Positions 30,587 through 36,108 of a stretch of DNA of 36,187 bases are shown here, one piece after another. The notes beneath the pieces are model-generated. The model saw only the letters and a list, made by a program, of their open reading frames with translations, made no database searches and was not told where the DNA came from. The stretch is from Bacteroidia bacterium (GTDB lineage: Bacteria > Bacteroidota > Bacteroidia > SpSt-205): the NCBI GenBank assembly GCA_025062295.1, contig JANXAJ010000021.1:1-36187 (forward strand). Direction: 5' to 3'. The position numbers were made by a program, and so were the translations under genes. How positions within the stretch are numbered: the first letter of the stretch is position 1; each line of letters begins with the position of its first letter.

Positions 30587-32185
30587 ATGACCAAAGAAGG
30601 CCAAACTTTACAAGAGTATGAAGCCCGTCTTAGAAAGTTGGAACGGGCAGCGCTTATTCAGGAGGCTCGAGCTGCGGGCATCCCTTCTCCTCATCGGACT
30701 AAGTCTGAGGAGCTGATTGAACGGCTAGTGCTGCTCAGAGCAGAGGCTTTAGCTCGGGCTACCTTTACCATGGAAATGCCTCAGAATGGAGACGGAGAAG
30801 AGCACCTCAGCGGTCGTCTCTCCTCTATCCAGTCAGCCCAAGAGGAAATGGAAGAAACTTCTCCTCTCTCAGCCGAGCCCCTGCTTGTCTCCTCTGAGGA
30901 AGACCAGAGCCTGCCTGAGAATACTTTCCTCCCCTTTACTGAGCACACCCAGACGACAGAGCTTTCCTCTCTTATAGAGCCCGCTTCCTCCTTAGGGCCT
31001 GAATCCCCCTCTGTTGACTTCTCCCCTGTCCGAGAGTCTTCCATCACAGAACTGCTGGAGCAGCTCACCGTCCCAGCAAGTGGTGTGCTCTGGCTTGACA
31101 AAAAAGCCCCCCACGGCATCCTTCGCTCTCCGTATTATAGCTACAAGCCTTCCCCCGACGACATTTATGTTCCAGCCTCTCTCATTCGGAAACATGGGCT
31201 CCGAATGGGAGATACAATTGAAGGGCGAATCCGACTCCCAAAGGAAGGCGAACGCTATTACACTTTAGTGGAAGTAGAGAAAGTGAATGGATTGCCGCTA
31301 ATGCATCTTCGAAACCGCGCTTCGCTGGAACACCTAACTCCTCTTTTTCCGACTGAGCGATTTCGCCTCTCAGAGGGAACAAATGATCTTTCGCTTCGAG
31401 TCGTAGATCTGTTTGCTCCTATCGGCAAAGGGCAGCGAGCCCTCATCGTGGCTCAGCCTAAAACAGGAAAGACCATCCTCCTTCAGAAAATTGCAAATGC
31501 TATTCTCCGAAATCATCCAGAAGCATATGTGATTGTCCTCCTGATAGACGAACGACCCGAAGAAGTTACTGATTTTGCTCGGAATGTACCAGCCGAGGTG
31601 ATTGCTTCTACCTTTGATGAGCCTGCAGAGCGTCAGGTGGAAGTAGCCGAAATTGTAATTGAAAAGGCCAAGCGACTGGCAGAGAGCCGGGTGGATGTGG
31701 TGGTCTTGCTGGATTCTATCACTCGGCTGGCTCGTGCCTATAACGCCGCCACCCCCGTTTCGGGACGCATCCTAACAGGTGGAATGGACTCTGCTGCCCT
31801 TCATAAGCCAAAGAGATTTTTCGGGGCTGCCCGTAAAATAGAAGAGGGCGGATCCCTCACCATCATCGCTACAGCCCTAATAGACACAGGTAGCCGAATG
31901 GATGAAGTAGTCTTTGAAGAATTCAAAGGCACAGGGAACATGGAGCTGCAGTTGGATCGGCAATTAGCCAATAAGCGCATCTTCCCTGCCATCAATGTTT
32001 TGGAGTCCGGCACCCGCCATGAAGAACTGCTAATAGAGCCAGCTCAGCTCGGGCGAATCTGGCTCTTGCGAAAGTTTTTATCAGAAATGAAGCCTATAGA
32101 AGCAACGGAATTCCTTTTAGACCGGATGCGTCATACCCGAACGAATGAAGAGTTCTTAGAGATTATGAGTAAATGGTCGGAGTAA
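30587..32185 (+). CDS. rho: Transcription termination factor Rho
   Basis: Hexameric RNA-dependent ATPase that terminates transcription, 532 residues. An N-terminal SAP-like helical segment (about 8-55) is followed by an insert rich in Glu, Ser and Pro (about 60-150), a Bacteroidota trait. The RNA-binding OB domain (about 160-240) contains [15 protein letters not shown]. The ATPase core has AQPKTGKT with K near 295, [13 protein letters not shown] and [12 protein letters not shown] with GGMDS. The ATG is preceded by a leader of about 50 nt. The stop overlaps rlmN by 13 nt. Confidence 0.97.
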
Positions 32186-33192
32186 AAGCCATTGGATGGA
32201 CCTTCTCCCCGAGAGAGTGGGAAAGATGGGTAGAAGAAAAAAGAGAATCCCTCTACCGAGCTCGCCAAATATGGCATTGGATTTGGAAGAAGGGGGTATA
32301 TAACCCAGCTCAGATGAGTGATGTTCCACTTTCCATACGCACAGCTCTTGACTCGGAGGTCTTCTTCCCCATGCTGGAGCTAGTGCGAAGTCAAGAAAGC
32401 AGAGATGGAACGCGAAAATTTCTCTGGGCTCTACCAGAGGGAGGAAAGGTAGAAACAGTCTGGATTCCACACCAAAACCGCTATACGGTCTGCATATCCA
32501 GCCAAGTGGGCTGTAGTCTCAACTGCCGCTTCTGTGCGACGGGACAGCTTGGGCTGGAACGCCAACTAAAAGGTTATGAAATTTTACTGCAAGTGTATGC
32601 AGTAAAGCATCTCTTAGGGCTCCCAATCACAAATGTAGTCTTCATGGGTATGGGCGAGCCTCTCCTCAATTACTCAGCTGTAATAGAAGCTGTAGAAGGC
32701 CTAACTCAGCGAATGGGCTTCAGTGGGAAGCGCCTGACTATCTCTACTGTAGGAATCCCAAAAGCAATTCAACGACTGGCAGAAAGGTCAGAGCCTTTTG
32801 AACTAGCCTTTTCCCTCCATAGTGCTATCCCAGAGAAAAGAAGGGCTTTGATTCCTTTAGCTGCTCATATCTCCTTAGAAGAGCTTCAGACAGCGCTCGG
32901 CTTATATTGCGAAAAGCGAAACGAATGGATAACTTTGGAGTATGTTCTATTAGAGGACATCAATGATCAAGAAGCAGACGCTGAGGCACTCAGAGAATTT
33001 ATTAAGCCCCCTCTCCGAGCCAAAGTTAACTTGATTGAGTATAATCCAGTTCCTGAGCTTCCCTTTCGGGGCTCTCGCCGAATAAAGGATTTTCAGCAAG
33101 CGCTCCTAAAGCGGAGGATCATCACAACTATTCGGCGCAGCCGCGGGGCAGATATTGCCGCAGCATGCGGCCAGTTGAGTCGCCGATTCTAA
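32173..33192 (+). CDS. rlmN: 23S rRNA/tRNA adenine-C2 methyltransferase RlmN
   Basis: Radical SAM methyltransferase that makes m2A2503 in 23S rRNA and m2A37 in tRNA, 339 residues. The cluster motif [11 protein letters not shown] is preceded by the conserved VCISSQVG. Further signatures are [22 protein letters not shown] and the C-terminal [11 protein letters not shown] with the methyl-carrying cysteine. It overlaps the rho end and is transcribed with it. Confidence 0.96.
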
Positions 33193-33200
33193 CTGCAGTT

Positions 33201-33229
33201 TTTGCCTAAGGCTGTTTTCTATACCTTTG
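33201..33229 (+). promoter_or_regulatory. Full Bacteroidota promoter (TTTG -33 and TACCTTTG -7) for the Fic-DUF3822-rsmD unit
   Basis: A TTTG (33201-33204) is followed 17 nt later by TACCTTTG (33222-33229), an exact TAnnTTTG. The ATG at 33252 lies 22 nt further, so a short leader is expected. This is the only box in the window with a recognisable -33 element. Confidence 0.65.
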
Positions 33230-33251: not shown

Positions 33252-34697
33252 ATGAGCACGATATTAGCTACTCATGGACTCAACTTCCGCTCTGTCTGGG
33301 TAGACCTTCCCTTTAGCCGCTGGGACTTACTCGCTCCTTCCTGGAAAGCTCGTCACCAGTATTTAGACTCTCAAGGTGAAAAGAGCTTCTACGAACGGGA
33401 TGCGTACGCCCACTGGGCGCGGGACTTCCTCGCTCTTCAAGGGATTGCCCGATTTTCTGCAGAAGGTTGGAGGCTTTATCAGGAGAGCGGCTATGAGAGC
33501 ACTGCTCTACTGCCCAGTGAAGTTTATCCATCGGTGAAGGAGGCGCATGCTTCTCTTCAGGGACTTGTAGAGGGAATGCAGCTTATGGCTCAGGAAGCGC
33601 GCAGGGGACAGGCCTTGGATGTAGCTACTTTCTTAAGGGCAGTGGAGAGAGCTTATGGACAAACCGTCTCTTTTCGCACCACACCGCTCAATGGACCCCT
33701 GCGAACGCTACCTCCCACGGAGATAGAGCCTACGCTTGGCGCACTCTTGTCAGAGATCCACACTCAATTCAGCAGTGGAGTTTCTCCTCTTGCACTATCG
33801 GCGTGGGCTCATCATGTACTCACTCAAGTCCGTCCCTTTGCCGATGGAAATGCCCGTGCCGCTTTTCTTCTGAGCCAGTATATTTTGTGGCGAGCTGGAC
33901 TGCCTGGGCTGCACTTCAAGCCTTCTCAACGGCTCTCTTATTACAAAGCTCTTCAAAAAGCTGATGAAGGCACCCTTCTTCCATGGGCACAAGCCTTTTT
34001 GCTCTTCCTTCAGCAGGCGGTACTTTACGCTCTAAGCTGGGGAGGGCGTCCCCGTGAAACTACCCGTGATGCTGCCCTCCAGTCCTTCAACCAGCGCTTT
34101 GCTGATTGGCGTAGCCGCCATGACCGTGAGCGCTCTCAACGCATTATGAATAATCGTTACACCATCTTTGACTATATGGAGGAGAGCCTGCGTAGTATTG
34201 CCACTGATCTTGACCAAAAGCTCAAAGTAGAAGAAGGTCGCAGTCCTCGGGTCCTCGTCGCCAAGGCCTACCCAGACTCACCCTACTACTATCAGTTTAC
34301 TACAGACATTATAGAATACGCCCGAGCTCATGGATACTACTTCAATCGTGGACTTCCCCGAGGGTGGTTCAAGCTCAAATTTTCCCTGTCTGCAAATAAA
34401 AAGTATCAGCTCGTATTTAGCCTACATCATGCGGGACACGAGGATGCTACCTTAGTAGTTGGGGCTTTTTTCCACTTCTTAGAGCCCCTCAAATATCAGC
34501 AAAAGCGGCTTAGACGGCGTCGCACCCCTCGCCGAAAAGAAAAAGCCATTTACCTTTTTGCCCCTCTACCTTTCAAGGCAGAACCCATAGCATTCTCTAT
34601 AGAGCAGAATATTCCAGGGGTTCGTTCGCTTCTGCGAGAGTATGCAGAGAATTTGGTAATCCAAGCTCTCAATGAACTTACTAATGAAATCTATTAG
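33252..34697 (+). CDS. Fic-domain protein with degenerate catalytic motif and unknown C-terminal domain
   Basis: The 481-residue protein has a helical Fic-like region (about 80-260). A segment like the N-terminal Fic inhibitory helix (ESTALLPSEV, 82-91) precedes it. The core has PLALSAWAHHVLTQ and then VRPFADGNARAAF (193-205), aligned with HPFxDGNGRxxR. The catalytic His is R194, the glycine is A201 and the last Arg is F205, while PFxDGN and R202 are kept. AMP transfer in the usual way is therefore doubtful. The C-terminal 220 residues are unknown, with a basic patch RLRRRRTPRRKEK (about 420-432). A full promoter lies upstream. DUF3822 follows after 3 nt. Confidence 0.75.
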   Translation: MSTILATHGLNFRSVWVDLPFSRWDLLAPSWKARHQYLDSQGEKSFYERDAYAHWARDFLALQGIARFSAEGWRLYQESGYESTALLPSEVYPSVKEAHASLQGLVEGMQLMAQEARRGQALDVATFLRAVERAYGQTVSFRTTPLNGPLRTLPPTEIEPTLGALLSEIHTQFSSGVSPLALSAWAHHVLTQVRPFADGNARAAFLLSQYILWRAGLPGLHFKPSQRLSYYKALQKADEGTLLPWAQAFLLFLQQAVLYALSWGGRPRETTRDAALQSFNQRFADWRSRHDRERSQRIMNNRYTIFDYMEESLRSIATDLDQKLKVEEGRSPRVLVAKAYPDSPYYYQFTTDIIEYARAHGYYFNRGLPRGWFKLKFSLSANKKYQLVFSLHHAGHEDATLVVGAFFHFLEPLKYQQKRLRRRRTPRRKEKAIYLFAPLPFKAEPIAFSIEQNIPGVRSLLREYAENLVIQALNELTNEIY

Positions 34698-34700
34698 TTC

Positions 34701-35591
34701 ATGACCATCGCCAAACCCCTTCCTGTTCAAGACATCTATACCTCTTCAGCTCTTAATCCGGCTTCCCTCAGCATCTATCACTTAGGAATTCTTTTAGATA
34801 ATGACCACTTTTTATATAGCATCTCCACTGCCCAGAATGAACCTCTTTTCGTGCGTTTATATAAGAATCGGGAAGGATTAGAGATTTCCAGATTTCTGGA
34901 TGCGGTCTGGCATCAAGACGATTTTCTGCGCAAACGGTTTGCCCACGTCCTCTTTCTTATGGATGTAGAGAAATGGATGGTGGTACCCTCAGAATATACG
35001 CCTGATGGAAAAGAAATGGAGTTCCTGCGAGCGTACTATGAGATTCGGGCTGGAGGAGATGGAGAGGTAGTATATAGAGCTCATAAGGAGATCCTCCGAG
35101 GGAGCGGAGCAGCATTTCTCGCTCTTCTCCCCGTTTCTCTTTATGAGTACCTCCAGGCCCGCTCAGGAACCTTAGAAGCGCACCATCTTAGCTATCGGTA
35201 TGTTCAATTGTCTCGGCACCTTATTCAGACTCATCTTCAACATCGTCCATATATTGGAATAGTGTGGCTCTTTCTGGGAACCTTTTACTACTGCTTTTTT
35301 GCAGGAGAGCAACTCCTTTTCGTAAATCGCTTCTCTGCAGCAACTACTGAAGATGTTCTGTATTATATCCAAGGCCTTCACAACCTTTTAGGCATAGACA
35401 AGGGACAAGTCGGAATAGCAGTGGCGGGCTATTCCACTCTCAAGCCATATGTGATGACCGTCATGTACCGATTTTTCGGGACGGGATACAAAGACTTAGG
35501 AAAGCTATTTTCTACCCCTTCTACTCTCAAAGAAGTGGGTTTGGCAACGGAGGATCTTCTTTTCCTTACAATGTTCGGTGCGGATAATTAG
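34701..35591 (+). CDS. DUF3822-family protein
   Basis: The 296-residue protein resembles the DUF3822 family, a Bacteroidota protein usually next to rsmD, as here. Visible traits are an N-terminal beta-strand pattern (SLSIYHLGILLDNDHFLYSI), VLFLMDVEKWMVVPSEYTP in the position of the family core, and IVWLFLGTFYYCFF, all compatible with an actin-like/PilM-like fold, which I infer only weakly. No signal peptide is present. Function is unknown. It is co-transcribed with the Fic-like gene (3-nt gap) and overlaps rsmD by 14 nt. Confidence 0.7.
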   Translation: MTIAKPLPVQDIYTSSALNPASLSIYHLGILLDNDHFLYSISTAQNEPLFVRLYKNREGLEISRFLDAVWHQDDFLRKRFAHVLFLMDVEKWMVVPSEYTPDGKEMEFLRAYYEIRAGGDGEVVYRAHKEILRGSGAAFLALLPVSLYEYLQARSGTLEAHHLSYRYVQLSRHLIQTHLQHRPYIGIVWLFLGTFYYCFFAGEQLLFVNRFSAATTEDVLYYIQGLHNLLGIDKGQVGIAVAGYSTLKPYVMTVMYRFFGTGYKDLGKLFSTPSTLKEVGLATEDLLFLTMFGADN

Positions 35592-36108
35592 AGGAAAATG
35601 GCAAGGACGCCAGATACCTTTTCCAAAAGGGGCTCCAACTCGCCCTCTGACCGAAAAAGCTCGTGAAGCCCTTTTTAATATTTTATCAAATCGGTGGACG
35701 ATAGAAGGAAGCCGAGTGATAGATCTTTTTGCAGGTGCAGGCACAGTGGGCTTGGAATTTCTTTCTCGCGGCGCTGCTCACGTTACCTTCGTGGAAAGAG
35801 ATAATCAGGCGGCATCCCTCTTGCGCAGCTTAGTTCATCAGTGGAATGCCCCTGCGGAAGTTTACCAGGAGGATGTTCTGCAGTTTCTTCAGCGTCCCCC
35901 TCAGCCAGCGGACTTTGTCTTCGCTGGTCCTCCCTTTCGGTATTGGCAGAAAAAGCTTGTGATTACCCTAATATTTAGTCGTGGCTGGCTTTGCCCTGGG
36001 GGATGCTTTATCTTAGAACACCCTGTCTATGAGTCTTACCGTGAAATGCCCTATTTCTGGCGGGAAGAGCGATATGTAGCAAGTGCACTGAGTTTTTTTC
36101 GCGGTTGA
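35578..36108 (+). CDS. rsmD: 16S rRNA guanine(966)-N2 methyltransferase-like protein with altered motif IV
   Basis: The 176-residue protein is of the RsmD family, which methylates G966 of 16S rRNA. The N-terminus MRIIRGKWQGRQIPFPKG and RPLTEKAREALFNIL are characteristic, and the SAM motif DLFAGAGTVGLEFLSRG is intact. Motif IV, normally DPP(F/Y), reads G117-PPF in VFAGPPF (codon GGT at 35926-35928), so the catalytic Asp is lost. GTG start 35578 overlaps DUF3822. The change needs only one base (GAT to GGT), so it could also be a sequence error. Confidence 0.85.
   Translation: MRIIRGKWQGRQIPFPKGAPTRPLTEKAREALFNILSNRWTIEGSRVIDLFAGAGTVGLEFLSRGAAHVTFVERDNQAASLLRSLVHQWNAPAEVYQEDVLQFLQRPPQPADFVFAGPPFRYWQKKLVITLIFSRGWLCPGGCFILEHPVYESYREMPYFWREERYVASALSFFRG

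Follow-up and report, generated by a model that had tools for sequence, protein, structure and literature searches.

Genes and features at the locus

The DNA analysed (the window, 36,187 nucleotides in all) comes from the genome of a Bacteroidia bacterium. Towards its 3' end, between rlmN and a gene for a DUF3822 protein, lies a gene encoding a protein of the Fic fold. The features of this region are:

32173..33192, + strand: rlmN (23S/tRNA m2A methyltransferase), the upstream neighbour (Pfam Radical_SAM and RlmN_N; synteny; CxxxCxxC kept)
33201..33229, + strand: Bacteroidota-type promoter in the rlmN-fic gap, TTTG-N17-TACCTTTG, recognisable in 9/11 genus genomes
33252..34697, + strand: gene for a putative Fic-fold pseudoenzyme of 481 aa, ATG start (open reading frame; Pfam Fic; orthologues in 11/11 genus genomes)
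33438..33440, + strand: Q63, at the position of the inhibitory Glu in the IETGxxE helix of canonical relatives (MAFFT alignment of a low-identity region, hence alignment-dependent)
33534..34037, + strand: Fic core, aa 95-262 (block of the AlphaFold model with pLDDT mostly >85; Foldseek matches to FICD and BT_2513)
33828..33866, + strand: degenerate Fic motif, V193-RPFADGNARAA-F205, with R194 encoded by CGT at 33831-33833
34107..34694, + strand: C-terminal 'NRxLPRGWFK' domain (aa 286-481), showing the strongest conservation in the protein and found alone in genomes G059 and G240 (no library match)
34485..34550, + strand: Arg/Lys-rich loop, aa 412-433, net +10 by charge count, predicted to be disordered (AlphaFold pLDDT <50)
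34701..35591, + strand: DUF3822 gene (Pfam), 3 bases past the fic-like gene
35578..36108, + strand: rsmD orthologue overlapping the DUF3822 gene; motif IV DPPF changed to GPPF, with Gly117 encoded by GGT at 35926-35928

At the level of fold the protein belongs to the Fic domain family, as the first-pass annotation of this DNA had proposed. Pfam Fic (PF02661) matches residues 151-212 with 31.8 bits against a curated cut-off of 24, and phmmer finds human FICD at 5.5e-12 over residues 140-247. An AlphaFold (AF2) model, built from a 9-sequence alignment and with a pLDDT of 76.9 overall that is high across most of the Fic core, retrieves FICD in Foldseek (E 6.2e-10) together with BT_2513 (PDB 3cuc; TM 0.70 of target).

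Comparisons were made across 11 genomes labelled as the same genus of uncultured Bacteroidota, the named records of which are Bacteroidia metagenome-assembled genomes; the series is presumably of hot-spring origin. Each of the 11 carries one intact orthologue, 479-506 aa long and 56-66% identical to the window copy, and none has a stop or frameshift. Sequencing or assembly error was discounted as 11 independent genomes carry the gene, and a recent pseudogene as the gene has no stops, is syntenic and possesses its own promoter.

Throughout the genus the genes run in the order rho-rlmN-fic-DUF3822-rsmD, with the end at rsmD lost to contig ends in G001 and G009, and this sustains the earlier proposal of an operon with DUF3822 and rsmD. 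The fic-DUF3822 gap ranges from -4 to +6 bases, so that the two genes are probably co-translated. As DUF3822 and rsmD are adjacent in other Bacteroidia too, the fic-like gene appears to have joined an older pair. Upstream, rlmN ends 59 bases before the fic-like gene. The promoter claimed for the gene is present in this gap, but it is of the Bacteroidota type, for which the -7 consensus is TAnnTTTG (PMC9723704); no sigma-70-type site was found in the gap. The Bacteroidota pattern occurs 3 times in the window versus 0.36 expected by chance. The locus does not resemble a class I toxin-antitoxin system: among open reading frames of at least 90 aa no small antitoxin gene adjoins it, the neighbours being rlmN and DUF3822.

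The RsmD of this operon has itself changed. In 9/9 genus members with readable sequence its motif IV is AGPPF where DPP[FY] would stand, while five RsmD relatives outside the genus (G046, G161, G059, G240 and G109) keep the Asp. No second gene of RsmD strength was found in the seven genus genomes searched. Judged by its motif, the operon RsmD is a second dead-looking enzyme, with a catalytic-motif change that extends across the genus.

The Fic motif and the inhibitory helix

Residues 193-205 of the window protein read VRPFADGNARAAF and, compared with HxFx[DE]GNGRxxR, are changed at the His, the second Gly and the second Arg. Reading the codons confirmed the substitutions first noted here (His to Arg, Gly to Ala, Arg to Phe), and all three positions are altered widely across the genus. 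The catalytic His expected of a Fic AMP-transferase is Arg194 in 10/11 genus genomes, which is more than free drift would give, and it is written with four codons (CGT, CGC, CGG and CGA); it is therefore neither an assembly error nor the product of recent decay. The phosphate-binding residues of such an enzyme are also replaced, the second Gly by Ala201 in 11/11 and the second Arg (205) by Phe in 10 genomes and Leu in one. D198 is kept in 10/11 (one Glu counted in), as is N200. Outside the genus, 19/19 Fic-bearing homologues have an intact HP[FY]xDGNGRxxR. Nor is the Doc kinase motif HxFx[DN]xNKR with its His present, the window motif being RPFADGNARAAF.

Both the second Gly and the second Arg have been described as needed for phosphate binding, and a side chain at the former as interfering with the binding of triphosphate (PMC8401265). 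The Gly-to-Ala and Arg-to-Phe changes hit residues that enable ATP phosphate binding, despite the DGN being kept in the window protein. A genome-wide search found no second Fic match in 10/11 genus genomes. G008 has an extra gene with a better-scoring Fic domain (G008:C2:136217-136468; 51.6 bits, in a 211-aa open frame).

One genome departs from this pattern. G001 (L067/L039) has His194 (CAC), but it has Ile198 and Ser200, its motif reading IHPYAIGSARGAF, so that active-site positions vary in different ways within a single genus. The retention of DGN claimed by the first-pass annotation accordingly holds for the window protein and fails in G001, where both Asp198 and Asn200 are lost. A close homologue with an intact His had been named as the observation that would point to sequence error or recent decay; G001 is formally such a homologue, yet its motif is broken elsewhere. 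With the motif columns left out, a Fic tree nests G001 inside the genus, albeit with an uncertain root, and the His194 of G001 may therefore be a reversal, which is as likely as its being ancestral. A genus tree from rho, rlmN and DUF3822 did not place G001, the outgroup branch being too long.

Changes are also apparent N-terminal to the Fic core. Every canonical relative for which N-terminal sequence was inspected has an IETG[IVL][IV]E helix, as in self-inhibited Fic proteins. At the position of the inhibitory Glu, the genus has an invariant Gln (11/11; MAFFT, and alignment-dependent) and so lacks the conserved residue which defines class II (self-inhibited) Fic proteins. In known Fics this Glu and the gamma-phosphate compete for the second Arg (PMC3667792). 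With the change of Glu to Gln and the loss of the second Arg, both partners of the Glu-Arg contact would have gone together in the genus. The Fic His has a role in FICD-type deAMPylation, and the pairing of inhibitory Glu and Fic His that marks such a deAMPylase is here replaced by Gln and Arg. The Glu supports deAMPylation (PMC6408439). Within the flap, the genus has lost, or varies at, the conserved residues N148, K143 and P154. Deletion in the flap was considered as added evidence and rejected: the flap is short against those of the nearest relatives, but similar in length to that of FICD, and the claim is consequently confined to the loss of conserved flap residues.

The C-terminal domain and the reversal of constraint

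The C-terminal part of the protein is a domain of about 196-207 aa (starting at about residue 275-286 and ending at 481), somewhat smaller than the 220 residues originally assigned to it. It has no match in Pfam, NCBIfam, PADLOC or PDB sequences. A fold search of the PDB likewise gave no match, which is weak evidence given the modest model used (pLDDT 70). RamC_N, at E 0.089, was taken as a chance hit. A profile of the domain found it in 7 non-genus genomes among 395 sampled of the class; additional copies turned up elsewhere in the phylum, and the order of G059 supplied another. Of these non-genus genes, 19 carry a Fic domain. The window protein and the canonical protein of G109 are homologous over their full length (hhalign E 4e-48, 460 columns). 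On sequence grounds, the former is a member of a Fic-plus-NRxLPRGWFK-domain family, defined here, and the domain is the usual C-terminal part of this Fic family, which has a scattered distribution in Bacteroidota. The description of an unrecognised fused domain with a basic patch stands in that the domain is unrecognised and has such a patch; it is not, however, a private fusion, being the C-terminus of a family and occurring alone in a sister lineage. In G109 (L062:256-880), small HTH-type, antitoxin-like open reading frames adjoin the canonical Fic-plus-C-domain gene, as in a toxin-antitoxin neighbourhood.

The sister lineage consists of two species of another family, G059 and G240; each encodes the C-domain as a free-standing protein (224 and 213 aa, respectively), and neither genome gives any Fic match. 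A tree of the C-domain joins them to the genus with support of 99/96 and nests the two together among canonical Fic proteins (92/89) as sister to G161/G109, although the branch of the standalone proteins is long. For the genus and the G059/G240 lineage the Fic domain has become dispensable. A second apparent standalone domain, in G615 (L075, G615:C136), was rejected since a frameshift lies between an intact Fic domain and the C-domain, and weak hits in G543 and G320 were set aside because of their stops. An origin from phage or plasmid was also rejected, as no C-domain relative was found in viral contigs and plasmids gave weak hits to the Fic core only.

The pattern of conservation is reversed in the genus. 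Among canonical proteins the Fic core exceeds the C-domain in conservation in 105/105 pairs (mean +0.23), whilst within the genus the C-domain comes out ahead in 55/55 pairs (mean -0.23). Mean identity within the genus is 51% for the Fic core versus 83% for the C-domain core, and non-synonymous differences per site are 0.34 versus 0.11, figures which do not amount to a proper dN/dS because synonymous sites are saturated. R142, W185, P195, G199, R202, Y230, A237 and D238 are nevertheless invariant in the Fic core, and from W185 onwards these are largely structural. Within the motif loop P195, G199, A201, R202 and A204 are invariant in 11/11, and the loop is richer in invariants than the remaining Fic core (6/15 versus 16/153, p 0.006). 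This conserved island suggests that the old pocket may still bind something, and both it and the retention of R194 count against the main reading proposed below.

These data bear on three alternative explanations. The Fido protein AvrB, whose catalytic motif is divergent, acts as a rhamnosyltransferase (PMC10866546), and because it is an active enzyme despite that motif, His-independent catalysis of another transfer by the Fic domain, for example of a sugar from a nucleotide-sugar, has been retained as a rival. The five invariant loop residues would suit such an enzyme. It is improbable, however, given that the Fic core is the least conserved part in the genus, the opposite of what is seen in active relatives, that Asp and Asn are lost in G001, and that two residues described as needed for phosphate binding (PMC8401265), the second Gly and the second Arg, have given way to Ala and Phe. 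The same island, with G199 and R202 kept and D198 and N200 largely so, could belong instead to a pseudoenzyme that senses nucleotide, binding it in the Fic pocket without transfer and thereby switching the C-domain. This seems decidedly improbable with the second Gly and second Arg replaced throughout the genus, since a side chain at the Gly is described as hindering triphosphate binding (PMC8401265). Finally, the Fic domain may be decaying and tolerated, with the C-domain alone mattering and eventual deletion to follow as in G059/G240. That a sister lineage has the C-domain without a Fic gene, and that Fic-core identity is low, agree with such a relic, but a relaxed domain would scarcely have avoided stops and frameshifts at this level of divergence, stayed within so narrow a range of lengths or kept its eight invariant residues, and we regard this explanation as very unlikely.

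The C-domain has, in addition, acquired charge. Its Arg/Lys-rich loop carries +7 to +10 throughout the genus versus -4 to +5 in relatives elsewhere, and appears to be a gain in the genus.

A probable binding role and its relation to known Fic proteins

The first-pass annotation had offered a pseudoenzyme among its readings, and this is well supported by genus-wide changes, by their incidence at several independent catalytic and regulatory positions, and by the reversed conservation. The protein is probably a Fic pseudoenzyme dead for AMPylation, in which the C-domain is the functional part and the likely partner is RNA or a ribosome-assembly intermediate. Its ancestor would have been a self-inhibited (class II-like) Fic protein with the family-specific C-terminal domain. 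The capacity for AMP transfer may have been lost in the ancestor of the genus, or early inside it, whilst the fold itself, down to the outline of the old active-site loop, presumably stayed on as a structural platform and function passed to the C-terminal domain. This domain, equipped with its newly gained loop, most likely serves to bind a partner, for which RNA or a ribosome-assembly intermediate is the best guess in view of the probable co-expression with DUF3822 and RsmD and of the neighbouring rlmN. As the C-domain has no recognisable fold or function, RNA binding is suggested by charge and neighbours. A role as a nucleic-acid-binding regulator, also raised earlier, is helped as a hypothesis by the basic loop and the rRNA-modification neighbours. 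It is conceivable, though unlikely, that the protein is a non-catalytic RNA- or ribosome-assembly factor acting with DUF3822 and the RsmD lacking its catalytic Asp, the sister lineage keeping the C-domain only; if true, a conserved operon of 'dead' enzymes would serve as a binding machine.

The closest counterparts are class II-like Fic proteins of Bacteroidota that carry this C-domain too (for example those of G109, G161 and G046; fold as BT_2513). They share the order of N-terminus, Fic domain and C-domain as well as the fold, but have HP[FY]xDGNGRxxR and the inhibitory Glu, whereas the window protein lacks both and has the basic loop. Among characterised proteins, BepC of Bartonella has a Fic domain which acts without its motif and appears to work by protein binding (PMC7842960). 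The window protein is similar in its apparently non-catalytic Fic domain, yet BepC, a secreted effector that also has OB and BID domains, keeps the His and both Arg, with only Asp changed to Lys; in the window protein the motif damage is wider, and no secretion parts were seen. AvrB (PMC10866546) likewise combines a Fic fold with a divergent catalytic motif, but it is an active glycosyltransferase effector for which no sequence match or shared extra domain with the window protein was found.

Replacement of the catalytic His has already been described in Doc clade D2 (His to Gln) and in the His-less Beps (PMC4454073, PMC8401265), and its loss is thus not new in kind. D2 consists mostly of single-domain Doc proteins (Qx[FY]x[DE][GV]NKR), the His-less Beps are secreted effectors, and a C-domain of the window type is not described for either. 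What is new is an undescribed domain of about 200 residues and an unusually clean comparison of before and after, alongside a genus-wide catalytic change flagged in the adjacent RsmD. Fic domains are usually read as AMP-transferases, and the clear non-enzymatic case in the literature consulted, BepC, is a secreted bacterial effector. Here, by contrast, the pseudo-Fic is vertically kept, chromosomal and apparently housekeeping. With active-looking relatives on one side and a Fic-deleted lineage on the other, the step from enzyme to binding protein is open to dissection by domain swaps.
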